Source of the DNA: a virus
DNA length: 21,221 nt
Reading direction: 5' to 3' (one strand)
IMG/VR virus record: IMGVR_UViG_3300021357_000291
Coordinates: 1 to 21,221 of that record
Shown here: one piece after another, positions 2,762 through 15,482 of the stretch
How the letters are laid out: each line of letters starts with the position of its first letter
Numbering within the stretch: the stretch's first letter is position 1
Program-made: the position numbers and the translations under genes
The notes under the pieces: generated by a model
What the model saw: only the letters and a program-made list of their open reading frames with translations
The model's database searches: none
What the model was told of the DNA's origin: nothing

Positions 2762-4243
2762 TTAAATGCCCGTGATATTTCGAATCAGGCCCGTATGGGT
2801 CGCGCTGGTCCGCGTCCCGGTCCGTTCCGACAAGGCGATGCGGAAGCTGACATATAGCGTAGTTTGACCTTTCCCAGCCTCACGGTCTGGCTCGAAGGTG
2901 ATCTGACGCCGGAATCCTACGCGCCATTGCGTCGTATTCACCAGCAGAATGCGCCCAGTAGTGTTGAGCGAAGCAGTATTGGATACCAATCCGCCAGCGG
3001 AAGCTGCCCGCATCTGGTCGGTGCGGATTACCGGGATCGACATGAGTTCCCGGATTTCTCCAGCGCTCAACGTGGCCCTTTCACCGAAGTTCTGAATTCC
3101 CAACAAAGAAGCAATGCCCATGCAGGCCGCCATTGTCCGAGGGTCGATGATCCAGACCACTTCCCCACGCCGCCGCGCTACCCAATATTTGCCAGTCAAT
3201 CCCATTACGCCAACAAACATCGCTATGTCGGAAGCCGCATTCTGGTTACGCGTCAGGGTGGTATTGTCAACCAGCGGCAGATGGATCAGACCATCGAAAC
3301 CGATAAGCTGGTGCGCTCTGCCAGCCGTACTTTTGCTGATGGTGGTGCTGAGGTAGTTGATGTTGTCCACAGCGGTCGTATCGGCATTGAGCAGCACATC
3401 GTCAATGATCTGAGCGGCATTGCGGGCCAGACCAGCCCGAAGCTCGGCGACCAAGGCGATAACCGCATCCTCTTCGAGTTCGTCCGAAAATGGAATGCCG
3501 GTTTTCAGGCCATAGGCCGTAAGAGTAGTTTTGCCGGTGGTCGGATCGGTGGTCGTCACTTGGACATTTTCGTCGCTGGGATACCAGTTCGTATCACCCA
3601 ATTGGCGGGGGATCTCAAACGGGTTGGTGGGCATCGCTTGCTGAGGAAACAACGGCAAGATCAAAGTATCGAGGTTAACGTCAAGCCATAGCTCAGCAGC
3701 CTCGAAGGTCGGAACCAGTTCATCGCCAGCGGCAGCGGTGGTTGAATCCAGTGCCTTTTGCCGCTCAACCAATAACGCCCTGCTCCAACCCTTCAGAGCT
3801 CCTTGGAAAGCATCCCGGCTGGTTGAAGGTCCAACATTTGCTAAGCCTCGTGTACGATGATCCAACGCGGCCTCTTCCCAACCGAAAATCGCGGATTCCG
3901 TGAGCATCCCAGTCAATTCCTTCCGACCTTCGAAAATATGTTCCATGATGGGCGGCATAGCACTCCGCCGCTCATACCGGTCGACTAGAATTTTCTCTAG
4001 AATGCGAAGGTCCAAGAGGTCGAATCCAGCGAGTTTGCCGCTTTGCAACCGGACCTTACCTTCCCGCGAAATCATCCTTTGGGTTTGCCGCTGCAATTCG
4101 ACGAGTTTATTTTCCGTGGTCAGCAGTGCCTTGTTAAGGCGCTCTACTTCCTCTCTGATTGGTTGCACTCCCGTTTTCAGCCTATCGTCGAACGAATGGC
4201 TCAGTTGCTTCAGTTCATCAATGACCTGTTGAATCTCGCTCAT
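2762..4243 (-). CDS. HK97-fold major capsid protein with N-terminal scaffold domain
   Basis: A 493-residue protein. Residues 1-65 are a highly charged heptad-like coiled coil (VIDELKQLSHSFDDRL, then REEVERLNKALL), the expected delta/scaffold domain removed by the prohead protease. The capsid fold begins around residue 172 at AGDELVPTFEAAELW, corresponding to the conserved 'GG.LVP...' entry of HK97 capsid proteins. It continues through P-domain and E-loop type segments (NPFEIPRQLGDTNWYPSDE; TAYGLKTGIPFSDELEED) and a long spine-like helix (LRAGLARNAAQIIDDVLL). AAAGGAG lies 8 nt upstream of the ATG, inside the protease gene, and the start overlaps the protease stop as ATGA. It is longer than the usual 380-420 residues because of the N-terminal and linker parts. 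Confidence 0.9.
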   Translation of the reverse strand: MSEIQQVIDELKQLSHSFDDRLKTGVQPIREEVERLNKALLTTENKLVELQRQTQRMISREGKVRLQSGKLAGFDLLDLRILEKILVDRYERRSAMPPIMEHIFEGRKELTGMLTESAIFGWEEAALDHRTRGLANVGPSTSRDAFQGALKGWSRALLVERQKALDSTTAAAGDELVPTFEAAELWLDVNLDTLILPLFPQQAMPTNPFEIPRQLGDTNWYPSDENVQVTTTDPTTGKTTLTAYGLKTGIPFSDELEEDAVIALVAELRAGLARNAAQIIDDVLLNADTTAVDNINYLSTTISKSTAGRAHQLIGFDGLIHLPLVDNTTLTRNQNAASDIAMFVGVMGLTGKYWVARRRGEVVWIIDPRTMAACMGIASLLGIQNFGERATLSAGEIRELMSIPVIRTDQMRAASAGGLVSNTASLNTTGRILLVNTTQWRVGFRRQITFEPDREAGKGQTTLYVSFRIALSERTGTRTSATHTGLIRNITGI

Positions 4244-5001
4244 TTCGAATCTCCTTTGTTAGCCCGTGTTAAATCCTGGATGCCAACCAAAACGCTATCC
4301 CAATCAGGCGGTTCAATAACTGGTTGCTTGTTTTCAGAGCGTGGAACCTTGAAGTCCTTTAATACTTCATCCACTTCATCGCGCAAAGCTGATAATTGCT
4401 TGTGCATATCAGCAATGCGCTTTTCGGCGTCGACCTCGAACGGCAACCAAAAATGGGACCGTGTGCCAAGCGCCCTTCGCAGAGCCTTGGCGTTTGCTGG
4501 GACTGCAACAGCGGAAATCTCCAATAATTCCTGCTTCTTGAAAAGCAAACCGCCGGGTCTTTGATTAGGCGATTGGTCTTTTCTCGGCAGTTCCTCGAAT
4601 TCGAAAACCCTGAATCCCACCGAAACAGCTCTCATGAATCCACGTTCGTACTTGCCCTTGATCAGCTTGGCGAAATCATCATCATCATCCCAGATGGCTG
4701 ACCCCAGCAGTTGTTTTCCTTCTACGTGCACATTGTTCCAAAGCCCGATCGCAGGAAAGGTCTGGTCATGCATATAGAGAAACACTGGATTCTTTTTGAA
4801 ATTCACCAAGTCCCAGCCGGAAGCGCTGATGATATCGCCAGCGCGGTCTTCGGATTCCTCTGAGGCAATGAAAACCATTGGCTCCCCAGGCCTGCCCTCA
4901 ATTTTCGTCCCTTCGGCACGATACAAGACCGGCGCCGATTCAAGCCCTTTCCGGTATTGTTCCAGGGCTTCCAGTTCTTCTTCTCTCAGTTGGTCAGGCA
5001 A
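4240..5001 (-). CDS. HK97-type prohead serine protease
   Basis: A 253-residue protein with the HK97 protease fold. His78 in FLYMHDQ, Ser127 in AVSVGF and Glu161 in LLEISAVAVPANAKAL sit at the conserved positions of this family, with the typical upstream 'ASEESEDRAGDIISASGWDL' type segment (about 46-65). It cleaves the capsid scaffold domain during maturation. The C-terminal ~80 residues are charged and coiled (KRIADMHKQLSALRDEVDEV), possibly a scaffold extension. The start is TTG at 5001: the frame is closed just upstream by TGA and offers no ATG, and GGAGAG precedes the TTG by about 8 nt. The stop overlaps the capsid ATG. Confidence 0.88.
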   Translation of the reverse strand: MPDQLREEELEALEQYRKGLESAPVLYRAEGTKIEGRPGEPMVFIASEESEDRAGDIISASGWDLVNFKKNPVFLYMHDQTFPAIGLWNNVHVEGKQLLGSAIWDDDDDFAKLIKGKYERGFMRAVSVGFRVFEFEELPRKDQSPNQRPGGLLFKKQELLEISAVAVPANAKALRRALGTRSHFWLPFEVDAEKRIADMHKQLSALRDEVDEVLKDFKVPRSENKQPVIEPPDWDSVLVGIQDLTRANKGDSK

Positions 5002-5253: not shown

Positions 5254-5805
5254 CTATGGCAGCAGTTCTTTCAGAAGATGTATGCAGGCATCGTGGGCAA
5301 CCTCAACCGGTCCATATTCCGTCATCTCAAGCACTACTGCGGATTGGCAATATTGCAGAGCTTCTCCCCCTCTGGAACCGAGCAAGCCTAGAATTGAAAT
5401 ATCTCGCTGTAGTGATTCAGCTTTCTGCAAGACAGATAAGATATTCGGAGACCGGCTCGAACCAGATATCACTATCAGCGCGTCGCCAAAAACAGCCTGA
5501 AACTCGAAAAGTCTAGAAAACACCTCGGCATAGGAATAATCATTAGCTATAGCGGTCAGGCAGGCGCTATCCGCTGTTAAGTCTACGGCCCGGAAATTTA
5601 CCTCTCTCAAGTGCAGAGTCAGATGCGCAGCATTGGCGCATGACCCGCCGTTGCCAGCTATATAGACTGTATTCTTCCGCGTTCTGATTAACCGAAGCTT
5701 CTCGGCCATGAGGAGCAATGACTCAGCGTCAATAAGAAACAGAGCACGGCTGTATTCAATCAGCCGCTCTCTCAGCATAGAAAGCTCGGATGCTACTGAT
5801 GACAT
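5254..5805 (-). CDS. GmhA-like SIS-domain phosphosugar isomerase
   Basis: An SIS-fold protein of about 183 residues. GNGGSCANAAH matches the phosphate-binding loop of sedoheptulose-7-phosphate isomerase (GmhA), and the central blocks AIANDYSYAEVFSR, VISGSSRSPNILSVL and LGLLGSRGG follow GmhA closely. GmhA converts sedoheptulose 7-phosphate to heptose 7-phosphate, the first committed step of nucleotide-heptose synthesis. By eye alignment to E. coli GmhA metal/catalytic residues H61, E65, Q172, H180, this protein has His, His, Glu, His (67, 71, 174, 182 counted from the 5823 GTG), so the acidic ligand seems to have moved. The gene overlaps the aminotransferase. I prefer ATG 5805; GTG 5823 and ATG 5778 are alternatives, none with a strong ribosome site. 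It is the last cargo gene. Confidence 0.82.
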   Translation of the reverse strand: MSSVASELSMLRERLIEYSRALFLIDAESLLLMAEKLRLIRTRKNTVYIAGNGGSCANAAHLTLHLREVNFRAVDLTADSACLTAIANDYSYAEVFSRLFEFQAVFGDALIVISGSSRSPNILSVLQKAESLQRDISILGLLGSRGGEALQYCQSAVVLEMTEYGPVEVAHDACIHLLKELLP

Positions 5806-6901
5806 ATTGGATTTGGTCCTCACTCAAATATTCGTGCACCGGCAATGACAAAATCCGGTCGGCTTGCTCCTCGGCCTTTGGCAGACTCCCACGGCGGTAG
5901 CCCAGGAACTCATAGCCTTTTTGTAAGTGGATTGGGATGGGGTAATGGATTTTGGTCTCGATGCCACGGTTGGCAAGGAAGGCCATAAGTTGCCGTCGGT
6001 ATGAGACCTGCACGACGAAAGTATGGTACGCTTGTCGGACTGAACTGCCAGGAGGGTCAAGCGGCGGCAGGAGCACGTCAGGAGCCAGCGCCTCTAAGCC
6101 TTGGCGGTACTGTCGGGCGTTGGCGTTGCGTCGTGCTGTGATGTAGTCCAGCTGCTCCAACAGGTGCCAAGCTGCGATGGCTTGCAGCGTGTCCAAACGG
6201 CTATTGATGCCCGCCACTGTAACGTGGTCTCGATCAACTAGGCCATGATTGCGGTAGAGCCGCATCCATTCGGCCCAGTCGTCGTTGTCGGTGACAATCA
6301 TTCCGCCATCGCCGCAGGCATGGACGTTTTTGAGAGGATGCAGGCTGTAAGCGGCGATATGGCTCAGTTTGGCCGAGGACTGGCCGTTGTAAGTCGCCCC
6401 GATGCTCTGGCAAGCGTCCCGCAGAATCCAGGTACCGTAAAGTCCCGCATCACGCCATCCATGCACGGCCGGTCGGCCGGTGAGGTCCACCGGGATGATG
6501 GCCTTGGTCTTGTCCGTCAGCAATCCGCTCACCTGTGTCATATCTATCAGGTAATCATCGCCCACGTCACAGAATATGGGCCTAGCGCCCACGGCTACGA
6601 TAGCCCCGACGGTGGAGACAAAACTGTTGGGCACTGTTATGACTTCATCCTCAGGGCCGACGCCGAGGATCTTGAGGGCGATTATAAGGGCATCGGTGCC
6701 GCTGTTGACGCCTATGGCGTGTTTCATGTTGCAGACTTCCGCCCAGCGCCGCTCCAGTCGTTCCACGGCTGGGCCCAATGTGAACCAGCCCCGTTCCAAC
6801 TCTTGCCGCCACTCCGTCAGGATGGCCTTACCAACTTCGCCATCCGGCGCAAGTTGCTGGTCAAGGTAGCTATACGGAACTTTCTGCGCCACGTTTACCA
6901 T
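5756..6901 (-). CDS. DegT/DnrJ/EryC1/StrS-family PLP aminotransferase
   Basis: A 381-residue fold-type I PLP enzyme of the sugar aminotransferase family. Seen in order: GVNSGTDAL (64-72) for PLP phosphate binding, PNSFVSTVGAI (91-101), RDACQSIGA (161-169) with the Asp that pairs with the pyridine nitrogen, the Schiff-base Lys191 in SLHPLKNVHACGDGG, and the C-terminal FVVQ...YPIPIHLQ segment. Members transaminate keto-sugar nucleotides to amino sugars, usually with glutamate as donor; a dehydrating minority exists but keeps His in place of this Lys. It starts 3 nt after the epimerase stop and its last ~50 nt overlap the isomerase gene. It implies that the cargo's sugar is, or is accompanied by, an amino sugar. 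Family is clear; substrate is unknown. Confidence 0.92.
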   Translation of the reverse strand: MVNVAQKVPYSYLDQQLAPDGEVGKAILTEWRQELERGWFTLGPAVERLERRWAEVCNMKHAIGVNSGTDALIIALKILGVGPEDEVITVPNSFVSTVGAIVAVGARPIFCDVGDDYLIDMTQVSGLLTDKTKAIIPVDLTGRPAVHGWRDAGLYGTWILRDACQSIGATYNGQSSAKLSHIAAYSLHPLKNVHACGDGGMIVTDNDDWAEWMRLYRNHGLVDRDHVTVAGINSRLDTLQAIAAWHLLEQLDYITARRNANARQYRQGLEALAPDVLLPPLDPPGSSVRQAYHTFVVQVSYRRQLMAFLANRGIETKIHYPIPIHLQKGYEFLGYRRGSLPKAEEQADRILSLPVHEYLSEDQIQYVISSIRAFYAERAAD

Positions 6902-6904
6902 CGT

Positions 6905-7882
6905 CTATTGCTCCCGCATCATCGGCGCCATACGCCTATTGTTGTACCATAGGTCCGAGTTTGGGTCTGCGATGTGCCCGGCCTGGAACCAGGCCAGATT
7001 GTCTCGCACTGCATCCTCGAGGGTGCGCCGGGGTTTGAATCCCAAAGTGTTGCGCAGTTTTGCCGCACTCATGCGATAACTCCGTGGGTCGCGTTTGTCG
7101 GCGTCAACCTGGATGTCGCCCCCCGCTACCTTCTGGACGATGCGGGCTATCTCCAGAGCGGTGTGGTTCCCCGCGGTGATGTTGAATATCTCACGGTTTA
7201 CCATAGCGGTGGGTGTATTCAACAGACGTGTGAATAGCTCGACTACGTCGGCGACATGGACGTTAGTCCGGTACTGGTCGCCACCATGCACCGTAATAAC
7301 CTTGTCGAAGTACGCCTGTTTACTGAAAATATTAACAATAGTGTCCAAACGCATCCGGGGCGCGGGGCCGCACAACGTGGCCGACCGCACAATCACGGCA
7401 GGAGTTAGGCTTGTGTTGGCCAGCACCATCTTCTCTTGTCCCCACTTCTGCAACCCATATTGGGTCTGAGGCCTCGGCGTCATCGTCTCGTCAGCGGGGG
7501 AGCCATCGGTGTTGCCATATACACTGGAGGATGACATAAGGATGAGTTGTCGCACATTATGGGCGTCGCAGAGAACCAGGAGACCCATCATAGCGTCGCA
7601 ATTGATTTGCCTCGCCTTCTCTACATTCTGTGCCACGAGCTCATCTGTCACGATCCCAGCTAGGTGGACCACGTCAGTTACGCCCTCCATTGCTCGTCCC
7701 AAGGAGTCCCAATCCCGTATATCGCCCTGCACATGCTCTACGTTTGGCGTTCCAGCGATGGCATTCCCGAAGGTCTGGCTGTCATAGGCCCGCACGGGCC
7801 AATAGTTAGCTAACGCTGGCACCAACGCGGTGCCAACGTAGCCGGTTCCACCGGTGACGAGGATAAGTCTGTCTTCAGCCAC
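6905..7882 (-). CDS. NAD(P)-dependent nucleotide-sugar epimerase/dehydratase (extended SDR)
   Basis: A 325-residue extended short-chain dehydrogenase. The N-terminal GGTGYVG (11-17) binds NAD(P), GDIRD (53-57) is the usual adenine-side motif, the catalytic Ser is in SSSSVYG (117-123), and Tyr142 and Lys146 form YGLQK. Homologues act on nucleotide sugars such as UDP-hexoses, and HldD, which epimerises ADP-heptose, is a member of the superfamily. The length is normal. The start is GTG 7882 preceded by GGTGGAGCA; it lies 73 nt inside the upstream kinase gene. In this context it could epimerise an activated heptose or prepare a keto sugar for the adjacent aminotransferase. UDP-glucose 4-epimerase-like activity cannot be excluded. 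Confidence 0.9.
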   Translation of the reverse strand: MAEDRLILVTGGTGYVGTALVPALANYWPVRAYDSQTFGNAIAGTPNVEHVQGDIRDWDSLGRAMEGVTDVVHLAGIVTDELVAQNVEKARQINCDAMMGLLVLCDAHNVRQLILMSSSSVYGNTDGSPADETMTPRPQTQYGLQKWGQEKMVLANTSLTPAVIVRSATLCGPAPRMRLDTIVNIFSKQAYFDKVITVHGGDQYRTNVHVADVVELFTRLLNTPTAMVNREIFNITAGNHTALEIARIVQKVAGGDIQVDADKRDPRSYRMSAAKLRNTLGFKPRRTLEDAVRDNLAWFQAGHIADPNSDLWYNNRRMAPMMREQ

Positions 7883-8727
7883 TGCTCCACCTCTTCTCTC
7901 GTAACAACCTTATTGCCCATTTTCCCAACCTTGATGCCACCTGCGATATTGCCCACTAACCCAACCACCTCAGCAGGTGCGCCAGCCCATACTAGCAGTG
8001 CCGTCACCGCTAGGAATGCATCACCGGCGCCCATACGGTCCACGACCCGATCTGCCACTGCTGGCACCCAGACTCTTTTGGCACCATTGATCACCAAACA
8101 GCCCTCATGACCGAGTGTGACAGCAAACATTTCAGTGCCCATTCGTTCAGCTTGTCTTCGCGCCAAAGATTCAATATCACTATAACGATCAGCACAAGCG
8201 AGACGTAATTCAACCTCATCCACCACTACATAATCGGCGCGAGGCCATTTGGTGAGAAGATTGAACCCCCAATTAGCTGAGTTACTTTGGACGGTCAGGG
8301 CGAGAAAAGACTGATGCGATATTTTATAGACCGCTTCCGCTCCCAAAAGACCGTGTCCGTAATCAGCAATCAGTAAAATATCGCATGGCGGAAACACCCC
8401 TGGAGACTCCGGTATTTGGATATTTTCGACTATAGAGAATAGAGTTTGTCTAAAGGGATGCTCCACGTAGCGTTGTTTCAGAACCGGGGTAAGATGTGTG
8501 TCCCGATAACACACGCTTTTGGCAAAAGCTCCGGCATGGGCAGCAACAATCCATCCCCCGCCACGGTAATCGGTAGTGCCGATGGGAGTAAAAGTTACGA
8601 TTGATTCCTTCGCACTTTTGCCCAGAGGTCGCACATGAATATAACGGTCAATGATGGGTTCGCCAATCACAACAACGTTAGCTTCTGCCGCCCTGTCAAG
8701 CCAACCCCGTATATCGGACGCTAACAT
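7810..8727 (-). CDS. PfkB-family sugar kinase, HldE/HldA kinase-domain-like
   Basis: A 305-residue ribokinase-superfamily enzyme. It has an N-terminal IGEPIIDRYIHV strand, YRGGGWIVAAHAGAFA (54-69) in place of the GG..NVA substrate motif, ADYGHGLL (121-128), and the catalytic DRMGAGDAF (230-238) with the Asp base at 236. The gene order (separate nucleotidyltransferase, kinase, then epimerase) mirrors nucleotide-heptose synthesis, in which the kinase phosphorylates heptose 7-phosphate at C1. The substrate-side stretch QSNSANWGFN (147-156) differs from the canonical HldE 'DPKG' region, so the substrate may differ. The C-terminal ~25 residues (PVEPATLAPRW) overlap the epimerase start and look like an added tail. 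Fructose- or ribose-type kinases are less likely given the neighbours. Confidence 0.85.
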   Translation of the reverse strand: MLASDIRGWLDRAAEANVVVIGEPIIDRYIHVRPLGKSAKESIVTFTPIGTTDYRGGGWIVAAHAGAFAKSVCYRDTHLTPVLKQRYVEHPFRQTLFSIVENIQIPESPGVFPPCDILLIADYGHGLLGAEAVYKISHQSFLALTVQSNSANWGFNLLTKWPRADYVVVDEVELRLACADRYSDIESLARRQAERMGTEMFAVTLGHEGCLVINGAKRVWVPAVADRVVDRMGAGDAFLAVTALLVWAGAPAEVVGLVGNIAGGIKVGKMGNKVVTREEVEQWLKTDLSSSPVEPATLAPRWCQR

Positions 8728-8736
8728 ATGATGGCT

Positions 8737-9222
8737 TCAGATGTAATAGGGGAATTGTGAGTTGGTAGTGAGGCCTATACGATCAATGAGTTCGGTAGAA
8801 CTTTGTTTGGCACCATTAGTGAACCGCAGGCAACCGCCGATAGCTTCTACTGCCCGCCTCTCGGTATCCAGATTTCCTGCGTGGTCTTCTCCGGCAGCAT
8901 AGTCCGGACCTTTGACATATACAGAGGGTCTCAGAGTTTGAATGAGTTCCACAGCCGATGATGAATCCATAATGATTACGTAGTCTACGAATTTTAAGGC
9001 GTCCAACAAAATCGCCCGTTGATATTCTGGAAACAACGGGCGCCCGGGGCCCTTTTCTATGTGGCGGTCGCCAGTGACCCCCACTACCAGAATGTCCCCC
9101 ATAGCTTTTGCTTGGCTGAGATGGTTAATATGACCGACATGCAGCAGATCGAAGCAACCGACGGAAAGAACGATACGCATACCTCCGTGCTTTTCAACCA
9201 ACTCCGCAAGACTGGTAATCAT
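8737..9222 (-). CDS. HldE/RfaE2-type nucleotidyltransferase (cytidylyltransferase fold)
   Basis: A protein of about 161 residues with the nucleotidyltransferase signature GCFDLLHVGH (22-31), including the HxGH motif that binds the nucleotide phosphates. It continues through GDILVVGVTGD, RPLFPEYQRAILLDALKFVDYV and YVKGPDYA, matching the adenylyltransferase half of HldE, which joins heptose 1-phosphate to ATP to form ADP-heptose. Kinase and nucleotidyltransferase are separate genes here, as in HldA/HldC systems. I prefer ATG 9222, after the upstream stop; ATG 9252 would overlap the upstream gene by 22 nt. Glycerol-3-phosphate cytidylyltransferase is an alternative of the same fold, less likely given the kinase and isomerase neighbours. 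Confidence 0.85.
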   Translation of the reverse strand: MITSLAELVEKHGGMRIVLSVGCFDLLHVGHINHLSQAKAMGDILVVGVTGDRHIEKGPGRPLFPEYQRAILLDALKFVDYVIIMDSSSAVELIQTLRPSVYVKGPDYAAGEDHAGNLDTERRAVEAIGGCLRFTNGAKQSSTELIDRIGLTTNSQFPYYI

Positions 9223-9230
9223 CGATAGGA

Positions 9231-9914
9231 TTACTTCACCACAATGCTGCATCGAGCATTGTCCGGCATCTTCGAGAGCTCTTCGATTATGTTGGCCCTC
9301 ATGTCGGACGGCGGTCTGAGCAACGTGACCTGAACATCGGTGTCCTGATATAGGTTAACCCCACAGGATGCCAAATACTCAAAGATATAGGCCTCCTCGC
9401 TGACAATCAACGGGTCGGTGAAGATACGGCAACCGGCCAATCGCGCGACTCTCAGGTCCAGCAAAAGGCAATTGGTGGTGTGCCATTGAAGACGCTGAAT
9501 GCCCTGGTTCGGATAGTAAGCGGGCCAGGATACTCGGCGAAACTTGTCTACCGTGGTGAACGAGCTTTGGTCGAACCAAGGAACGATGCATAGCCGGTTC
9601 CGCTCAACCAGTTTCTTGATAGTGTCTGGATCACTCAGCAGCACGTCGTTATCAAGAATGAGAATATGGCTGGCATTGTTATTTAAGGCACTCATTATGG
9701 CCTGGTTCCGCATGGCTCCCAAACCTTGATACGGTTTGATGCACAGATTTCCCACACTGCCCAGGGCGCCAGTCCAGTCCATTTCCCAGATGCGTTTAGC
9801 CGCTGCGGTCGCCGCCTCTTTGACACCAGGCATGAAATTATCACCCATGAAAGTGATAAAGACATTGGGCAGATCCGAGATTGCTTCGCCTTCTATCATT
9901 TTGGGTGTTGTCAT
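9231..9914 (-). CDS. GT-A-like glycosyltransferase (paralogue 3)
   Basis: A 227-residue protein related to two other genes of the block. It has an N-terminal VFITFMGDNF strand, YQGLGAMRNQAIMSAL (62-77) and a DXD-like DND at 88-90 in LILDNDVLL, the expected nucleotide-sugar and metal site of GT-A enzymes, then a hydrophobic segment TNCLLLDLRVARLAG and an acidic EEAYIFEY near residue 180. It is the most divergent and shortest of the three and has no transmembrane segment, so it should be cytoplasmic. It sits between the radical SAM gene and the nucleotidyltransferase. Sugar donor and acceptor are unknown. Confidence 0.7.
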   Translation of the reverse strand: MTTPKMIEGEAISDLPNVFITFMGDNFMPGVKEAATAAAKRIWEMDWTGALGSVGNLCIKPYQGLGAMRNQAIMSALNNNASHILILDNDVLLSDPDTIKKLVERNRLCIVPWFDQSSFTTVDKFRRVSWPAYYPNQGIQRLQWHTTNCLLLDLRVARLAGCRIFTDPLIVSEEAYIFEYLASCGVNLYQDTDVQVTLLRPPSDMRANIIEELSKMPDNARCSIVVK

Positions 9915-9946
9915 GCTCTATCCGTGTCCCATAAGCCTGACAGTTC

Positions 9947-11104
9947 TCACAGAAAATCGATATGCAACGGCGCCGGACTTTCGGCTTTCCGCAAAGATTC
10001 TATCCCTTTCATGTGCCTGTCTAATGCCGTGTTAGCGAGATGCTGGATGCAAAGCGCCCCGCACATGCGCTGTGCATCAAATTGGTCACTCGCTAGGTAA
10101 TGCATGACCTCCCAATAGCGGTCCGACTGCCAGATGTCCCACCAACGCTGCTCGCAGATATTGCCGATGTGAAACTTGGCATACCGGTCATTGAAGAGCA
10201 TCCCGCAAGGCGCAACGAGACCGGACCCAGACATCTGAATCAGGAATGGCGGACCGTAACAACGCTGATAGGATCGGGCATTCGTCTCCGTTTCCGCATC
10301 CCTGATTTTATTCCATTTGACTGCGACCCGGTAACGGTCAGTGGATAAGCTTTCGGCCTGGCGGAGTAGATCATGCAGTTCGTTATATTCCTGATATTTG
10401 ATTCCCAAAGTCCGGTATTCGTCATCGGAGCAGTGCTTGATTACTGCATAATCAACGCCAAGCTCTTTCCCCAATTCAGCAAAAGGTAGAATCTGGTCCG
10501 AGTCCTTGGGCATCAAGACCATCTGGATGCCCAGAGTAACACTTAGATTTCTTTCCTGTTTAATACGGACGGCGGCGCGCACATTAGAAATGACTCTTTC
10601 CCAGAACGATGGTTTGACTCCCATGATTTGGCAATATCGCTGCTGAGTGCCGCCGGAGATGTTGAAGCGAAGATATGAAAGACATGGGAGCACCTGGGAC
10701 AGCAGAGATTCAGTGAAGCGAAATCCGTTTGTTCCTGATGCCATAGACAACCCGAGGCTATACCCTTGGGTGATGGTATGACCATAGATCGGTGAGACGA
10801 GGCTTTCTCCGTCGCTGACGAGTGAAATTCCTCTGACTCCCATTCGAGCCGAATCTTCCAGAAACGCATCGATGACCCCCTCAGTTATTTCTTGCCGGTC
10901 GTTTTCCTGCATCTGGGCATAACAAAATCCGCAGGCCGCATCGCAGGCCCTGGTGAGAGCCATATCGATCGTGATCGGCGCAATTCGTTCCCCACGCTCC
11001 CAAGCCTGTACTCGGTCCATATGCCACGCGAGTTTGTGGCCATCGAGCACCATCTTGGTATGGTCTTCAATGGGGGACAAGACATTATGTGGGACGTGTT
11101 TCAC
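9947..11104 (-). CDS. Radical SAM protein with SPASM domain
   Basis: A 385-residue radical SAM enzyme. The N-terminal CDAACGFC (C54, C58, C61; C-x3-C-x2-C) binds the SAM-cleaving 4Fe-4S cluster, followed by TIM-barrel segments such as GISLVSDGESL. The C-terminus holds Cys282, 300, 317, 348 and 352 in a SPASM arrangement (APCGMLF, NICEQRWWDIW, MCGALC) that would carry an auxiliary Fe-S cluster. SPASM enzymes modify peptides, proteins or sugars; members also occur in sugar and peptidyl-modification clusters. The GTG start at 11104 overlaps the preceding small gene by 20 nt. It might modify a sugar intermediate or a virion protein; the substrate is not visible from the sequence. Confidence 0.88.
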   Translation of the reverse strand: MKHVPHNVLSPIEDHTKMVLDGHKLAWHMDRVQAWERGERIAPITIDMALTRACDAACGFCYAQMQENDRQEITEGVIDAFLEDSARMGVRGISLVSDGESLVSPIYGHTITQGYSLGLSMASGTNGFRFTESLLSQVLPCLSYLRFNISGGTQQRYCQIMGVKPSFWERVISNVRAAVRIKQERNLSVTLGIQMVLMPKDSDQILPFAELGKELGVDYAVIKHCSDDEYRTLGIKYQEYNELHDLLRQAESLSTDRYRVAVKWNKIRDAETETNARSYQRCYGPPFLIQMSGSGLVAPCGMLFNDRYAKFHIGNICEQRWWDIWQSDRYWEVMHYLASDQFDAQRMCGALCIQHLANTALDRHMKGIESLRKAESPAPLHIDFL

Positions 11105-11339
11105 TGAAGCTCACACCACGGAGTTTTTGTCTCAATTTATTCTGGTCAAGTTTTGGCTCCAACAATACTTCTAGGACGGGATTTACCTGACCCCTTAGCT
11201 GTTTTTCCAATGATAATAAACGCCGACCACGTTCGGCAGTCGGCAGATGCTCCGGCAATTTGACTATCACATAGCGATCCTTCAAGGCAACCAAGGTGCA
11301 CGTGCCGTTCAAATACGGCGTGATTTCGTCAGGCTCCAT
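11085..11339 (-). CDS. Small unknown protein
   Basis: An 84-residue protein with no recognised family. The N-terminal half reads as a short beta hairpin (GTCTLVALKDRYVIVKLPEH, residues 12-31) and the C-terminal half as a charged helix (ERGRRLLSLEKQL) followed by a Lys/Leu-rich helix. It follows the preceding small gene with a 1-nt gap, has AAGGCGG upstream of ATG 11339, and overlaps the radical SAM start, so it is probably translated. It could be a partner of the radical SAM enzyme, by analogy with small carrier or precursor proteins next to SPASM genes, but it lacks an obvious core-peptide motif. Confidence 0.55.
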   Translation of the reverse strand: MEPDEITPYLNGTCTLVALKDRYVIVKLPEHLPTAERGRRLLSLEKQLRGQVNPVLEVLLEPKLDQNKLRQKLRGVSFSETRPT

Positions 11340-11340
11340 G

Positions 11341-11535
11341 CTATGCCGCCTTTTTGGGCCGGCCTTTCTTTTTAACGACTATTGGCGGGATCATCTCTCC
11401 TGCCGTAGAGGCTTGCTGCTGCTGTAATGTCTCCAATATCTCGATTAACAACACGAAGCCCAGGACTTCATTCGGGGGAAGCCTGAATTGGTCCTTCAGC
11501 TCCGTGAGGGCCTCTCTATAATCCGCCGCTTTCAT
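11341..11535 (-). CDS. Small unknown protein with AT-hook-like basic tail
   Basis: A 64-residue protein. ATG 11535 overlaps the stop of the upstream glycosyltransferase as ATGA; a GTG at 11544 would add three residues. The body is a predicted helix (YREALTELKDQF, then VLGFVLLIEILETLQQQQAS) and the C-terminus is KKKGRPKKAA. GRPKK resembles an AT-hook core that binds the DNA minor groove or RNA, though such tails also arise by chance in small basic proteins. No catalytic residue is evident. Its role in the cargo is unknown. Confidence 0.55.
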   Translation of the reverse strand: MKAADYREALTELKDQFRLPPNEVLGFVLLIEILETLQQQQASTAGEMIPPIVVKKKGRPKKAA

Positions 11536-12305
11536 CGCTGCCACATAGCGTTCTGAATGGCTTCTTTCGGCGCTAATTGCTGGTAATTTCTTTTGATGTG
11601 GTCAAAAGGAAAATGGGGAGCGTTCTGTACTTTGACCACCGTATTCGTATCGACGATGGGATGGTGACCGGTCATGGCCAAGCGGTCGAAATGAAATTCC
11701 TCATCGGCTCCGCGGGCGTTATCCCAGAATGGCGTCAAAGCCCAAGGGAGAAAAATCTCAGTGCGCATCAGCAGACAAGACAGGAGCACGCTATGAGCTA
11801 CCAAAAGTCCGCCACCTTCCGGGTAACTAGCCTGCCTGATCCCATAATCCTTGCCGTCAATATACCGCACCAGAGGAGCAATAACTGGCATCTGCCATTC
11901 CTGAAGCTTCATTAGAGTGTCTGGTTCTGGAAGTATGTCGTTATCGACATACATCAACCATTCGAATCCTTCCCGGAGTGCCCGCATATAGGCCAGATTC
12001 CGCATTGTGCCCAGACCATCATAGGGTTCGTAGCAGCGGTCTTGCTCGGCATAAAAGCGGACCAGAATGCCGCCCTCTTGCCAGGAATGTTGCGCCATCG
12101 CCAGAACTGCCTCATAGCTCCCAGGATGCCAGTGCTTACCTATGGCGGCGATGATAGTAGAGCCTGGATAAAGATGCGGGCGCATCCCAGCTTTGGCTCT
12201 TTTATTCCATACCTCGGCCTGATGCTTGGTTTCCGCAGGACCGAAATAAAGCTCCGGCGCCAGAGTTGCAGCCCGGTAGACCGCTGGAGTCAGTTCGTCT
12301 ACCAA
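11532..12305 (-). CDS. GT-A-like glycosyltransferase (paralogue 2)
   Basis: A 257-residue protein. The core has IIAAIGKHW (50-59), EQDRCYEPYDGLGTMRN (88-104) and the DXD-like DND at 121-123 in YVDNDILPEPDT, then LQEWQMPVIAPLV and GADEEFHFD (about 206-214), where the acidic pair could serve as catalytic base. It is closely related to the gene at 14406-15482 (shared QDRC.xPYD.LGTMRN, WQMP..AP and GADE..HF). The fold suggests transfer of a sugar from a nucleotide donor. The start is TTG 12305, chosen because GGAGGG lies just upstream within the preceding gene. No membrane segment is visible. Donor and acceptor are unknown. Confidence 0.75.
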   Translation of the reverse strand: MVDELTPAVYRAATLAPELYFGPAETKHQAEVWNKRAKAGMRPHLYPGSTIIAAIGKHWHPGSYEAVLAMAQHSWQEGGILVRFYAEQDRCYEPYDGLGTMRNLAYMRALREGFEWLMYVDNDILPEPDTLMKLQEWQMPVIAPLVRYIDGKDYGIRQASYPEGGGLLVAHSVLLSCLLMRTEIFLPWALTPFWDNARGADEEFHFDRLAMTGHHPIVDTNTVVKVQNAPHFPFDHIKRNYQQLAPKEAIQNAMWQR

Positions 12306-12592
12306 TCGCCCTCCGTGAGGCCTAGCGGGCCCAATATCTCTGCTGGTATTTTGAAAGGCGTTCCATTGGTTTGTTCCCGTGTCTTCAGTTGCTTTCTGCC
12401 AGTCATCAAAATAACTTTCCAGTTCTCCGGGCTGAATCTGAGAATTGCGAGGGCATTAGGTTTCGATGATGATGGTGGACCATTCGAAGGGACGGGGCTT
12501 TTATGGAGGACCAGCATGACGCCAAGGGGATTTTCGTACAACTGGAAGAGATCGGAATATAGGTCAGGGCATTCGCTATCTAGTTCAGGCAT
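12299..12592 (-). CDS. Small protein, DUF3467-like beta-sandwich candidate
   Basis: A 97-residue protein starting at ATG 12592, with GAGG six nt upstream; a TTG at 12604 overlapping the upstream stop is less likely. It reads LYSDLFQLYENPLGVMLVLH (around residues 11-30), a proline/serine linker, ILRFSPENWKVILMTGRKQL, and ends GPLGLTEGDW. The layout (YSD.f....nP.gv.L.f near the N-terminus, then a helix ending R.QLK) resembles small phage and bacterial DUF3467-like proteins of unknown function. That comparison is from memory and tentative. It lies between the TPP-enzyme beta gene and a glycosyltransferase and overlaps the latter by 7 nt. Confidence 0.5.
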   Translation of the reverse strand: MPELDSECPDLYSDLFQLYENPLGVMLVLHKSPVPSNGPPSSSKPNALAILRFSPENWKVILMTGRKQLKTREQTNGTPFKIPAEILGPLGLTEGDW

Positions 12593-12600
12593 ATGTATCC

Positions 12601-13134
12601 TCAATCCAAATGTTCAACGATTAATGTTGACCCGGTATTGTGAACAGCGCGCTCGTAGACGAGGGGAATATATTCAGGAGTTGCAATATATTCCACCTGT
12701 ACAGCGGTCAAGAGTTTCAAAAAAGCGTCCGTATGATTCTGCGTATGTTGTGGCCCCGCATTCAAGGGCGTTTTAGAGCCGACCTTGGTTCGGATGATTA
12801 TTTTCGGGCGGAACTGGTTCCGGGACATCAGGGGCATTTTGTCAAGATGATTCACCAATTGGTTCATTGCCAAGAGGAGAAAATCCATGCGGGGATACAT
12901 GCTGATGGGCAGGAAACCTTGCAGGGCCAGGCCGATGCTCATTCCCATCTGGAGTTCCTCCGCCACCGGCAATTCCAGACGTTGAGAATTCGGCACTCCG
13001 TCGAGATGCTTGAACATGACATTGCCATCATATTTGACGTTTTGGCCAAGAAAGATCGCACCTGGCTGACCTGCCAACATCAGCATAGCTTGATTAAGTA
13101 GTTCATCGGTCCTTGTTTTCTGTCTGGTAGTCAT
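12601..13134 (-). CDS. TPP-dependent enzyme, E1-beta/transketolase pyrimidine-domain subunit (minimal)
   Basis: A 177-residue protein matching the pyrimidine-binding domain of 2-oxoacid dehydrogenase E1 beta and transketolase C-type subunits. The conserved Glu that activates thiamine diphosphate is Glu59 in LPVAEELQMG. It is followed by SIGLALQGFLPI, YPRMDFLLLAMNQLVNHLDKM and AGPQHTQNHTDAF (126-138). It ends at STLIVEHLD, where the pyrimidine domain normally ends, so the ~140-residue transketolase C-terminal domain of standard E1 beta (about 325 residues) is missing. It overlaps the alpha subunit gene as ATGA, implying a 1:1 complex. The likely role is C-C bond cleavage or formation on a keto acid or ketose. 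Confidence 0.82.
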   Translation of the reverse strand: MTTRQKTRTDELLNQAMLMLAGQPGAIFLGQNVKYDGNVMFKHLDGVPNSQRLELPVAEELQMGMSIGLALQGFLPISMYPRMDFLLLAMNQLVNHLDKMPLMSRNQFRPKIIIRTKVGSKTPLNAGPQHTQNHTDAFLKLLTAVQVEYIATPEYIPLVYERAVHNTGSTLIVEHLD

Positions 13135-13700
13135 CCGAAATTCACAAACTGCCCAATGCCCACATGCGGGAAGATACGTGTGTATTTATAGTAATGATAT
13201 TTGTTCTGTGCACCACACCCTCCCCCCCAGACCTCGCGTGTGGGTGTATTGGTTGAGACTCCGTTGTCCTCTACGACTATTGTTAGCGGGAGAACATGCC
13301 CAGCTGCATATCTCGCTGTTTCGTACCAGATTCCAGTCAGGGCAGTCATGTCCCCGATGAATGCCCAGACTCTTTCGGTCCCTTCGTTCCTTTTGATTCC
13401 CATCGCTAGACCACAAGCGATTGGAAGAATTCCGCCTACAATACTCGAAGAAATGAATCTGTGCTTTTCGCTCATGATATACATGCTGCGTCCGTCGAGA
13501 ATTTGTTGGAACAATTCTTCGGCTGGAATGCCCTTTAGTAACGCATGATAATGGCTCCGCCAGGTCGACAGGACCCAGTCCCGATCATCGACCCCTTTGA
13601 AAATTCGCAGGAGATCATCTTCATTGCCGCCGGACAGATGCACCGGCGCGTGAATTTGTTTCGCTAGAAACGCATCAATAACCCGTTGCTCGAAAGCCAT
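13131..13700 (-). CDS. TPP-dependent enzyme, E1-alpha-like diphosphate-binding subunit (minimal)
   Basis: A 189-residue protein (from ATG 13700, preceded by AAAAGGGGAG; ATG 13739 would add 13 residues and overlap the upstream gene). It follows E1 alpha: STWRSHYHALLKG (46-57), ISSSIVGGILPIACGLAMG (about 83-101) and the diphosphate/Mg motif from GDM (116-118) to EDNG (144-147), which replaces the usual GDG...ENNG. The catalytic site should form with the beta subunit. Standard E1 alpha chains are about 320-360 residues, so this one is reduced to the cofactor-binding core. It may supply a ketose such as sedoheptulose phosphate or modify a keto sugar. The substrate is unknown. Confidence 0.8.
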   Translation of the reverse strand: MAFEQRVIDAFLAKQIHAPVHLSGGNEDDLLRIFKGVDDRDWVLSTWRSHYHALLKGIPAEELFQQILDGRSMYIMSEKHRFISSSIVGGILPIACGLAMGIKRNEGTERVWAFIGDMTALTGIWYETARYAAGHVLPLTIVVEDNGVSTNTPTREVWGGGCGAQNKYHYYKYTRIFPHVGIGQFVNFG

Positions 13701-13722
13701 GAGCTCCCCTTTTGTTACTTTC

Positions 13723-14172
13723 TCACGAACGATTATCATTTTCTACCTGTGTCCGTAATTCCATCGCTCGGCTACTTAGCTCCAAGAGCTCCCGATACTG
13801 CCTGTGTTTGACCCCATATGGCGAAGCGTCCCCGCCAACAGGACTTTGAATCCCTTCCTCATCTTCAAACCAATACGAACAGGGTGTCGCCGCCACTTGC
13901 TCCGGGAATTCCGGAAATACTCGGCAAGCCTCGGGACGTTTATCGTAGATGGAGCAGCGGTCGTTCCTGTGTTTGGGGCATGGCACAAAAGAATCGGCGA
14001 TGATTTCTAAGCCAACTCCCTGCGGCGTGACGGCAGGTTTGAAACCACGGACGCTGAGGAATTCCCGGTCGCGGTCATTTGGTTCTTTGATGAACAAACG
14101 GGTGCGGTTAACTGAAAACATACAGCAGAAACCACAATGAATACATTCCCCTTTTCGTACCCATTTAACCAT
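13723..14172 (-). CDS. YkgJ-family CxxCxxCC metal-cluster protein
   Basis: A 149-residue protein beginning MVKWVRKGECIHCGFCC; Cys10, 13, 16 and 17 form the CxxCxxCC signature of the YkgJ/UPF0153 family, with further Cys at 65, 73, 83 and 98 in PCPKHRNDRCSIYDKRPEAC. Family members are thought to bind an Fe-S cluster or zinc; their activity is poorly defined. Most sit near other modification enzymes in genomes. Here it overlaps the upstream small CxxC gene by 8 nt and lies 22 nt before the TPP alpha gene. The length and Cys layout are normal for the family. It might assist the radical SAM enzyme or act on a glycan acceptor, but nothing in the sequence settles this. Confidence 0.82.
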   Translation of the reverse strand: MVKWVRKGECIHCGFCCMFSVNRTRLFIKEPNDRDREFLSVRGFKPAVTPQGVGLEIIADSFVPCPKHRNDRCSIYDKRPEACRVFPEFPEQVAATPCSYWFEDEEGIQSPVGGDASPYGVKHRQYRELLELSSRAMELRTQVENDNRS

Positions 14173-14413
14173 TGCCTAGGACTTCTCGCACAAATGACAG
14201 AACGGCAGAACCATCGGTCGTCCCCGAAACCTGGCGTAATATTTCCTGAATGGACAACGATCCCGTATGGTAGGTCCCATGGTGCCGGCTTATAATTTCA
14301 ATCCCGTCATGCGTGATTTCAGCCAGTTTCTGATGCCCTGGATGGGCGCAGGAACAGACATTGCAGAATAAATTTATCGGCTTACTATTTGTGCCGTTGC
14401 CTCGATTACGCAT
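14165..14413 (-). CDS. Small Cys/His protein (zinc-knuckle-like)
   Basis: An 82-residue protein. I place the start at ATG 14413, 8 nt inside the glycosyltransferase gene; an upstream ATG at 14452 would overlap it by 47 nt. FCNVCSCAHPGHQKLAEI (about residues 16-33) has a C-x2-C-x-C..H..H cluster able to bind a metal, followed by ISRHHGTYHTGSLS, which adds three His. The C-terminal part is a short helix (EILRQV) and tail. It may be a small zinc-binding protein, resembling phage-encoded zinc-ribbon proteins. It is followed directly by the CxxCxxCC protein. No function is assigned. Confidence 0.55.
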   Translation of the reverse strand: MRNRGNGTNSKPINLFCNVCSCAHPGHQKLAEITHDGIEIISRHHGTYHTGSLSIQEILRQVSGTTDGSAVLSFVREVLGNG

Positions 14414-15482
14414 TGCCAGCTCGAGAAAACGCCAAGCCACGCGCGAGATCATCCGGATTTATACCTACCGGGAGCTTGCCGTTAACTTGGGGAAGTGTTG
14501 AGAGCGCTTTTTGGGCCTCCTTCTGGGCCTGCTCCGCTTTAACTAGGAAAGGTGCGTACTCTCCATCCTTGATCCATGGACTATTGGGATCTATCGGACG
14601 GCGATCTGGCGGCTCAACAAACCGTTCTATTTTCTGTTGCAGCATGATTTCTCGGTCACCCTTGCTAGCGCGAACGAATTCCACGAGCCCTGCTGTAAGT
14701 TCTGCTCGGTCGGATTCTATCAAAATCGTCCCTCGCCGTTGCAGGATGCCCGCCAATTTGCTGCTTAAAATATTTGCCGCCTGCTCCACGTCAGCCATAG
14801 AACCGCTACTTAGACGATTCAAAGCCAAGGGATACAAAGGCCGTCCGCCCACCTCTAGCTGCAAGGTCGTGTCGATATAGAGATGGTATCCGTAGTATTG
14901 GAGTAGATTGAAATGATAGCCTTCATCGGCACCGATCGCATCGCGCCAGAATGTAGGTCCCGTTTGCCGAAACACCGTTGTATTGAACAGCAGCATCGAC
15001 AAGACCGCCCATTTTGCGCGTTGCAACCCACTATTGACTTGTATATGCCCCGGTCCGAATAACCGGTTGCCAGTGCCCGGTTCAGCGACAAAGGGCGCCA
15101 CAATGGGCATCTGCCACTGCAATAAACGCAAGAGGGTGTCCTTCTCTGGTTTGACATCATTGTCGATGTAGAGAATGAATTGGAACCCTTCCCCTAAAGC
15201 GGTTAATATCGCCTCATTGCGCATGGTCCCCAGGGCATCGTAGGGATTAAAACAACGGTCTTGAATCTCGGAGAGTGCCGCATAAACGCCCTGAGTCTGG
15301 GTGTGGTCAATCATGTCGACGACTTTGTTCCAACTGCTCTGCCGCCAATGATTCCCCATCGCCGCCACCAGAACTGAATTCGGTCGGATGTGGGTCCACG
15401 AACGGTCCATCTGTTGATGGGCAGCAGACATTTCGGGATTAGAGGGATAGCTGCGCAGTACCGTGTGGCGCGACGAAGGCAA
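14406..15482 (-). CDS. GT-A-like glycosyltransferase with C-terminal extension (paralogue 1)
   Basis: A 358-residue protein, first gene of the cargo. The catalytic core (about 35-225) has VLVAAMGNHW, EIQDRCFNPYDALGTMRN, DXD-like DND at 107-109 in YIDNDVKPEKDT, LLQWQMPIVAPFV, and GADEGYHFN (about 183-191). It is the closest relative of the gene at 11532-12305. About 125 further residues (from GGRPLYPLALNRL) contain charged helices (EQAANILSSKLAGILQRRG; KAEQAQKEAQKAL) absent from the other two and may mediate binding to partner or virion proteins. The start is uncertain: TTG 15482 has no clear ribosome site and the frame stays open upstream to the portal gene, where AAAGGG precedes an ATT. Confidence 0.75.
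   Translation of the reverse strand: MPSSRHTVLRSYPSNPEMSAAHQQMDRSWTHIRPNSVLVAAMGNHWRQSSWNKVVDMIDHTQTQGVYAALSEIQDRCFNPYDALGTMRNEAILTALGEGFQFILYIDNDVKPEKDTLLRLLQWQMPIVAPFVAEPGTGNRLFGPGHIQVNSGLQRAKWAVLSMLLFNTTVFRQTGPTFWRDAIGADEGYHFNLLQYYGYHLYIDTTLQLEVGGRPLYPLALNRLSSGSMADVEQAANILSSKLAGILQRRGTILIESDRAELTAGLVEFVRASKGDREIMLQQKIERFVEPPDRRPIDPNSPWIKDGEYAPFLVKAEQAQKEAQKALSTLPQVNGKLPVGINPDDLARGLAFSRAGNA

Follow-up and report, generated by a model that had tools for sequence, protein, structure and literature searches.

We analyzed a stretch of 21,221 nucleotides from an uncultured virus (IMGVR_UViG_3300021357_000291, positions 1-21,221), the whole of which we refer to as the window. ORF calls and a domain scan placed a sugar cassette at 5254-15482, where it forms one minus-strand operon within a head-gene operon; every window gene described below, including those on the flanks, lies on that strand. 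The domain scan recognized a major capsid protein (2762..4243) and a prohead protease (4240..5001) on one side and a portal protein with a Mu-F domain (15532..17730) on the other. The original prediction, which spanned 5254-9222, described a GmhA-like isomerase, an HldE-type kinase and nucleotidyltransferase as separate genes, an extended SDR epimerase, and a DegT/StrS aminotransferase. All five ORFs (5254-9252) were recovered with Pfam matches, tightly spaced or overlapping. The limit of the predicted range did not hold: the operon extends to 15482, and this further part encodes a thiamine-diphosphate (ThDP) enzyme of two subunits, three glycosyltransferase-like proteins, a radical-SAM/SPASM protein, and a small conserved protein.

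Synthesis of ADP-heptose proceeds through GmhA, a kinase, the GmhB phosphatase, a nucleotidyltransferase, and HldD. By sequence, the isomerase, the kinase, and the nucleotidyltransferase of the cassette each match heptose families best. Since every NCBIfam score falls below the curated cut-off, the sugar skeleton is putative. For the SIS-domain isomerase (5254..5823; PF13580, 30.1 bits, cut-off 27), the best NCBIfam row was gmhA at 72.4 bits, below the TIGR00441 cut-off of 209. When compared with the zinc ligands of GmhA (PMC5387315), the positions matching H61, E65, Q175, and H183 read H/H/E/H in the window, a set that is plausible chemically but differs from GmhA. The Glu65 position is occupied by His in the window and by Asp in most viral relatives, and the zinc site is chemically retained in nearly all of the 54 viral SIS proteins compared. 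The PfkB-family kinase (7810..8727; PF00294, 50 bits) belongs to a viral subfamily with an HldA-like fold and an intact GAGD motif; its best NCBIfam row was rfaE_dom_I (67.4 bits, below the TIGR02198 cut-off of 345). Among solved structures, HldA ranked first by sequence and also against the predicted kinase model (pLDDT 90), with Z scores of 27.4 and 26.5 followed by 25.0 for the next structure. Finally, the HldC/RfaE-II-like nucleotidyltransferase (8737..9252; HVGH motif; PF01467, 60 bits), for which an inner ATG at 9222 is an alternative start and marks where the predicted range stopped, matched rfaE_dom_II at 124 bits (TIGR02199 cut-off, 181.5). Comparison with HldA/HldC-type families, part of the suggested check, put heptose families first, by sequence for all three enzymes and by model for the kinase.

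Two further genes complete the predicted range. The extended SDR (6905..7882; PF01370, 123 bits) has a GalE-like motif, SSSSVYG...YGLQK, and no acidic residue at the dehydratase position. Its score against the HldD model TIGR02197 was 55.6 bits, with a cut-off of 274.6, and GalE and RmlB models scored higher. The DegT/DnrJ/EryC1/StrS aminotransferase (5756..6901; PF01041, 310 bits, cut-off 19.8) carries the PLP lysine motif HPLKN.

The core extra step beyond a heptose-type route is the ThDP enzyme, which the original prediction did not include. Its alpha subunit (13131..13739) is a minimal PDH-E1-alpha-like protein with the ThDP motif GDM...EDN, and its PDH-E1-beta-like beta subunit (12601..13134) consists of the pyrimidine domain only, with the catalytic Glu that is present in 28 of 28 beta subunits compared. 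At 202 and 177 aa, versus about 300 aa in full-length alpha-KADH2, the window subunits lack a C-terminal domain. Full-length subunits occur in relatives L121 and L124, as does a full-length beta subunit in L127. Because the window subunits are minimal, the donor and acceptor of the enzyme are uncertain. We considered membership in a pyruvate dehydrogenase complex and rejected it for the window form: the beta subunit stops short of a C-terminal domain, and neither an E2 nor a lipoyl gene was seen.

Several further components lie on either side of the ThDP genes. The radical-SAM/SPASM protein (9947..11104; CxxxCxxC motif) is 62-64% identical to its counterparts in L124 and L121, and it overlaps the gene for the small conserved protein h11085 (11085..11339). 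Three genes are glycosyltransferase-like: GT3 (9231..9914), which is Anp1-like with a DND motif, GT2 (11532..12305), and GT1 (14406..15482), which is 60% identical to L124 GT1 over 223 aa. Their assignment as glycosyltransferases is tentative, drawing on a weak Pfam match and on a low-confidence GT1 model (pLDDT 58) that is too poor for a class finer than a GT-A-like fold. The operon also encodes a CxxCxxCC (YkgJ-like) protein found by the domain scan (13723..14172), an uncharacterized ORF (14165..14452), and another (12299..12604) with no recognized domain and no relative in the examined loci.

To find related viral loci, alignments rather than single proteins were needed: scans of viral contigs with a single kinase or SDR protein gave no matches, and those with the portal gave distant portals only. 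The resulting set comprises 49 non-redundant viral loci with the kinase subfamily, drawn from a kinase scan made without the ThDP gene and counting the window and one locus from a ThDP scan; the loci are not phylogenetically independent. A nucleotidyltransferase was present in 43, a SIS protein in 36, a ThDP enzyme in 45, and a radical-SAM protein in 36. Fusion of nucleotidyltransferase and kinase, seen in L121, L124, and L127, was called in 23 loci; such fusions come from ORF calls and could reflect sequencing errors in single contigs, but this one is recurrent. Of 46 loci, 29 have portal, capsid, or terminase genes that were recognized no farther than about 10 kb away, always on the strand of the kinase. 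Gene identities, fusions, a conserved module, replacement of one ThDP type by another, and a place among head genes can all be read from these sequences.

The distribution of the SDR and aminotransferase bears on the suggestion that the product is a different activated sugar, perhaps an amino sugar. An SDR and DegT acting together to yield an NDP-amino-sugar would fit the intact PLP lysine and the SDR-DegT-SIS gene order retained in L124 and L127. However, DegT occurs in 7 of the 49 loci and the SDR in 20, so this explanation fits a subset only, and the SDR is without the acidic residue of 4,6-dehydratases. While an amino sugar is possible for the DegT-bearing subset only, a mainly amino-sugar product is decidedly unlikely. 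The broader part of the suggestion fared better. The product is probably not plain ADP-heptose, because the SDR does not reach HldD-level similarity, an aminotransferase is present, and the conserved module includes a ThDP enzyme and a radical-SAM protein.

The ThDP enzyme itself varies in type. It is PDH-E1-like in 27 loci, transketolase-like in 3 (with a second copy in L143), and YerE/JanthE-like in 15, and the last type shares no locus with either of the others. In proteins from 2 of the 15 YerE-like loci, scores against JanthE (8rph) far exceeded those against acetolactate synthases (L142, 389 versus 281 bits; L129, 200 versus 146). In each of the three ThDP superfamilies, there are enzymes known or proposed to build a two-carbon branch onto keto-sugars (PMC12247030, PMC4425429). 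Alternatively, the enzyme could be a transketolase making the ketose phosphate used by the isomerase (sedoheptulose 7-phosphate or a homologue), in which case an unbranched NDP-sugar would arise from central metabolites. Transketolase-type subunits in L143, L148, L164, and L167, a SIS-E1alpha fusion in L168, and a transaldolase-family gene beside SIS in three loci (L129, L130, and L134), a possible source of sedoheptulose 7-phosphate, are in keeping with this idea. Yet most of the ThDP subunits are PDH-E1-like, the other type is JanthE/YerE-like, and the three transaldolase loci also hold a YerE-like enzyme. To our knowledge, no enzyme of the JanthE/YerE kind synthesizes sedoheptulose 7-phosphate. 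A transketolase supplying sedoheptulose 7-phosphate was the initial idea; once the YerE-like alternatives and the transaldolases had turned up, we downgraded it to a rival, which we now think quite unlikely.

A GmhB-type phosphatase was reported missing from the region, and our analysis agrees: the domain scan of window ORFs gave no HAD family, tblastn with L124 GmhB against the window gave a best E value of 0.13 or worse, and the 252 bp that separate the isomerase and protease genes were searched for a GmhB remnant and showed none. In L124, the nearest relative, a GmhB-type gene adjoins the isomerase (1 of 48 records), and none was found in the remaining 47 related records. This neighbor marks a GmhB-type phosphatase as part of the predicted pathway. 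Because none was found in those 47 records, GmhB probably comes from the host as a rule. Each of the two earlier alternatives, host supply of GmhB and a different activated sugar, thus finds some support. Viral NDP-heptose gene sets in general are without a phosphatase (PMC11461863), and the window matches the definition given there (isomerase, kinase, and nucleotidyltransferase, no phosphatase). With such enzymes published and a GmhB-type gene in L124, lack of the phosphatase is unremarkable on its own.

Another view is that, with GmhB from the host, the product of the cassette is ordinary ADP-heptose or its 6-epimer, which alters host LPS against superinfection, and that the ThDP and radical-SAM proteins serve an unrelated function. 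Heptose families do rank first, viral NDP-heptose enzymes make ADP-heptose (PMC11461863), and Pelagimyophages carry rfaE among LPS-type sugar genes in a variable cluster (PMC7029224). Against this stand an SDR that is not HldD-like, a ThDP enzyme that adjoins the kinase in 45 of the 49 loci and is fused through E1alpha to SIS in L168, and a position among head genes that suggests a virion target. We regard plain ADP-heptose as unlikely.

The radical-SAM protein could instead belong with h11085 to a separate peptide-modifying (RiPP-like) unit beside the sugar genes. SPASM proteins frequently modify peptides, and h11085 shows a conserved motif at its C terminus and adjoins the radical-SAM gene in most loci holding both. 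But where h11085 is absent, the radical-SAM gene still comes after the ThDP genes, and it is partly exclusive of the SDR (Fisher p 5e-4, for loci that are not phylogenetically independent), as if the two were interchangeable in one pathway. A separate peptide-modifying unit seems a rather improbable account. Many loci have no SDR, and from the partial anticorrelation we would guess that the radical-SAM protein makes a ketone.

The leading interpretation, at roughly even chances, is that the cassette supplies virion glycosylation with a nucleotide-activated sugar of the heptose type, probably C2-branched. The NT-kinase and SIS-E1alpha fusions, the GmhB-type gene of L124, and the transaldolase-family genes beside SIS speak for it. 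The reactions, their order, and the target, including the branching step and the virion, are our proposals. The SIS isomerase would start from a ketose phosphate, for which sedoheptulose 7-phosphate is the likeliest candidate, and form an aldose phosphate, the PfkB kinase would phosphorylate C1, a GmhB-type phosphatase, usually from the host, would remove the terminal phosphate, and the nucleotidyltransferase would yield an NDP-heptose-type sugar. Next, the SDR, the radical-SAM protein, or both would create a ketone, to which the ThDP enzyme would add a two-carbon unit, probably from pyruvate, like AviB1/B2 and YerE. Where present, DegT might aminate a ring or branch keto group, and the glycosyltransferase-like proteins would transfer the sugar to its acceptors, which are most likely proteins of the virion.

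The cassette shares with the canonical ADP-heptose pathway its best-matching isomerase, PfkB kinase, and RfaE-II nucleotidyltransferase, and in L124 a GmhB-type gene; it differs in scores below cut-offs, the lack of GmhB and HldD in the window, and the extra ThDP, radical-SAM, and DegT proteins. The viral NDP-heptose enzymes of Tang et al. 2024 likewise comprise isomerase, kinase, and nucleotidyltransferase with no phosphatase, but the commentaries consulted on them (PMC11461863, PMC11573728) describe no ThDP/radical-SAM module, ThDP replacement, or head-gene location. Cyanophages S-SM2, P-TIM68, S-CAM1, and P-SSM2 cluster the same kinds of enzymes, again with no GmhB annotated in the stretches compared, and the fullest clusters hold Zn-ADH, fused E1alpha-beta, kinase, SDR, nucleotidyltransferase, and a short SIS. 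However, their kinases are 21-24% identical, E1 is one chain accompanied by Zn-ADH in S-SM2 and P-TIM68, and the clusters lie outside the portal-capsid interval in those stretches. Both superfamilies represented by AviB1/AviB2 and other alpha-KADH2 (E1-like) and by YerE/JanthE alternate in the viral cassette, although in the sources consulted the known enzymes use LPS or antibiotic keto-sugars rather than phage heptoses, and the E1 pair of the window is minimal relative to alpha-KADH2. A 2025 review points to viruses as a possible source of surprising branching-ThDP orthologues (PMC12247030); with a few search terms and open-license papers only, we found no literature linking phages with branched-sugar ThDP enzymes.

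Commentaries state that the purpose of viral NDP-heptose enzymes is not known (PMC11461863, PMC11573728). The cassette gives them a concrete candidate purpose, a modified heptose-type sugar on the virion, and some 50 viral loci offer small enzymes with which the idea of virion decoration can be examined. A bolder version, which we find somewhat unlikely, is that tailed phages of no close kinship have in common a head-gene cassette for a nine-carbon, C2-branched heptose and glycosylate their own capsids with it, interchanging three ThDP superfamilies at a single carbon-carbon bond-forming step and making the ketone with either a radical-SAM protein or an SDR. The branched sugars that ThDP enzymes are so far known to make come from LPS and antibiotics. 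Since the core set occurs in about 50 other viral sequences, on the same strand as any capsid genes recognized nearby, it may be that certain phages cover their own virions in a rare branched sugar.

The 21,221-base IMG/VR record is linear, and its minus strand carries, in order, DNA methylase, small and large terminase, portal, a sugar-gene cassette (5254-15482), prohead protease, major capsid protein and head-tail genes. Searched against 50,697 deposited phages, the portal matched distant relatives only, the best at ~27% identity across most of its length. The five enzymes of the original prediction, a near-complete nucleotide-heptose pathway, were all found tightly packed in the window with correctly assigned families, and no gene for the GmhB-type phosphatase it had reported missing was found there. 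For the GmhA-like isomerase, the PfkB-family kinase and the nucleotidyltransferase, the top curated families were gmhA, rfaE domain I and rfaE domain II, with scores far under the cut-off in every case. The extended SDR is generic, closer to GalE than to HldD, with motifs SSSSVYG and YGLQK and without the acidic dehydratase residue; the DegT/StrS aminotransferase retains its PLP lysine motif.

The cassette extends beyond these five genes. By simple ORF selection, the operon upstream of them encodes GT3, a radical-SAM/SPASM protein, the small conserved protein h11085, GT2, the beta and alpha subunits of a PDH-E1-like thiamine-diphosphate (ThDP) enzyme, a CxxCxxCC protein and GT1, the first gene directly after the portal. 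The glycosyltransferase-like GT1, GT2 and GT3 are paralogues with a DND motif, and the predicted model of GT1, a low-confidence one, matched GT-A folds. No counterpart of the CxxCxxCC (YkgJ-like) protein (13723-14172) turned up in the relatives examined.

Viral contigs gave at least 573 stretches matching a ThDP alpha-subunit profile, against only 22 loci in 84,980 prokaryote genomes, and the family is therefore largely viral as sampled here. At many viral loci, nucleotidyltransferase, kinase, isomerase, beta-subunit and radical-SAM genes adjoin the alpha gene. To guard against circularity, viral contigs were scanned again by kinase alignment only, which detects only proteins carrying two conserved motifs and gave 56 loci; after addition of the window and of L024, which came from the ThDP scan, and removal of weak matches and near-identical copies, 49 remained. 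Among these loci, which are not independent of each other and whose IMG/VR contigs may be fragments, the ThDP enzyme occurs in 45 (two of the four exceptions, L135 and L138, stop at the cassette), the nucleotidyltransferase in 43 (23 with a kinase-nucleotidyltransferase fusion), the isomerase and radical-SAM protein in 36 each, h11085 in 25, the SDR in 20, DegT in 7 and GmhB in 1. In the portal-B phage group, an uncharacterised protein of ~305 aa lies just before the nucleotidyltransferase-kinase gene (L142 8610-9527 and 23 other loci); its N-terminus looks glycosyltransferase-like, with no Pfam match. The cassette idea takes a second form in cyanophages, in Prochlorococcus and in several other bacterial MAGs (L004, L014, L105, L108, L109, L112): a Zn-alcohol dehydrogenase gene adjoins one for a ThDP protein of ~400 aa in which E1-alpha and E1-beta are fused, and a PfkB kinase often accompanies them.

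We propose, from the sequences, that the ThDP enzyme performs a sugar-branching step. The PDH-E1-like subunits are minimal in the window and full-length at the same place in L124, L127 and L121; yet the radical-SAM protein next to them in L124 and L121 shares 62-64% identity with that of the window, so the ThDP enzyme has been exchanged even between close relatives. Split transketolase-type subunits occur in L148, L164 and L167, and L143 has both kinds. Fifteen loci carry an acetolactate-synthase-like enzyme, never together with the other two types (nominal Fisher p 2.5e-9, uncorrected for relatedness), and the two such proteins compared matched JanthE (8rph, YerE-like) far better than any acetolactate synthase. 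According to a review, only the YerE-like, alpha-KADH2 and transketolase superfamilies are known to use ketone acceptors, mostly for sugar branching (PMC12247030), and a paper on paulomycin gives AviB1/B2 and YerE as the two known routes to two-carbon branches (PMC4425429). Furthermore, one ORF of L168 (10987-12501) fuses a GmhA-like isomerase domain to a full PDH-E1-alpha-like domain. A transketolase-like supplier of ketose remains a rival role for the enzyme; branching is proposed mainly because precisely these ThDP types interchange at one place and because of the L168 fusion.

The radical-SAM and SDR genes are partly exclusive across the 49 loci (radical SAM only, 27; SDR only, 11; both, 9; neither, 2; p 5e-4). 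Each may provide the ketone, but the window itself has both genes and the idea is only a suggestion. The h11085 gene (11085-11339, minus strand), present in 36 other loci (e.g., L142 11405-11602), usually directly precedes the radical-SAM gene. Its products, mostly 61-107 aa, end in a conserved motif approximating GDDSKLRxxMTxxQRxxL (GDxNxLRxRLRGV in the window's group), and h11085 is a possible substrate or partner.

Several lines of evidence favour a heptose product, short of proof because the cassette enzymes belong to divergent subfamilies. The kinase model (pLDDT 90) is nearest to Burkholderia cenocepacia HldA (Z 27.4 and 26.5; next entries 25.0), also its top match by sequence, and the structures nearest to the isomerase are GmhA. 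The zinc ligands of Neisseria gonorrhoeae GmhA are H61, E65, Q175 and H183 (PMC5387315); across 54 viral isomerases the corresponding positions hold H in 53, D/H/E in 53, E/Q in 52 and H in 51. At the E65 position, the catalytic Glu of GmhA is replaced by His in the related isomerases of the window (5254-5823), L124 (13265-13858) and L127 (9039-9644) and by Asp in most other viral isomerases; either residue could possibly still bind metal. In L129, L130 and L134, a transaldolase gene adjoins the isomerase gene.

The lack of GmhB is usual, because nearly all related records share it and published viral sets do too: viral NDP-heptose enzymes are functional and viruses lack the phosphatase, according to commentaries on Tang et al. 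2024 (including PMC11461863). Among 48 whole records searched, L124 alone has a GmhB-type gene. This relative, whose portal, protease and capsid are 44-51% identical to the window's, carries it beside the isomerase gene, which supports a heptose-bisphosphate-like intermediate; the HAD-family product scores 154 bits against PRK08942 (cut-off 178) and 113 against TIGR00213 (cut-off 149.6), with an FLDRDGV motif and the Cys/His pattern. In Prochlorococcus genomes L110, L112 and L114, genes for the fused ThDP enzyme and for an HldE-like protein adjoin a GmhB-type gene. A single ORF of the human faecal phage contig MT835644 (L017, 6064-7620) matches GmhB and isomerase profiles, apparently a phosphatase-isomerase fusion.

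Genomic position bears on the target of the sugar. Of 46 loci, 29 have a recognised portal, terminase, capsid or protease gene no more than ~10 kb from the kinase, on the same strand in every case, and cassette loci include three portal families in different PHROGs. In the window and L124 the portal and major capsid genes lie on either side of the cassette, and several other loci share this arrangement, for example L133, L140, L142, L156, L157, L160 and L164-L166. Late co-expression alongside head genes is more in keeping with a virion target than with a takeover of host LPS, though this evidence is circumstantial.
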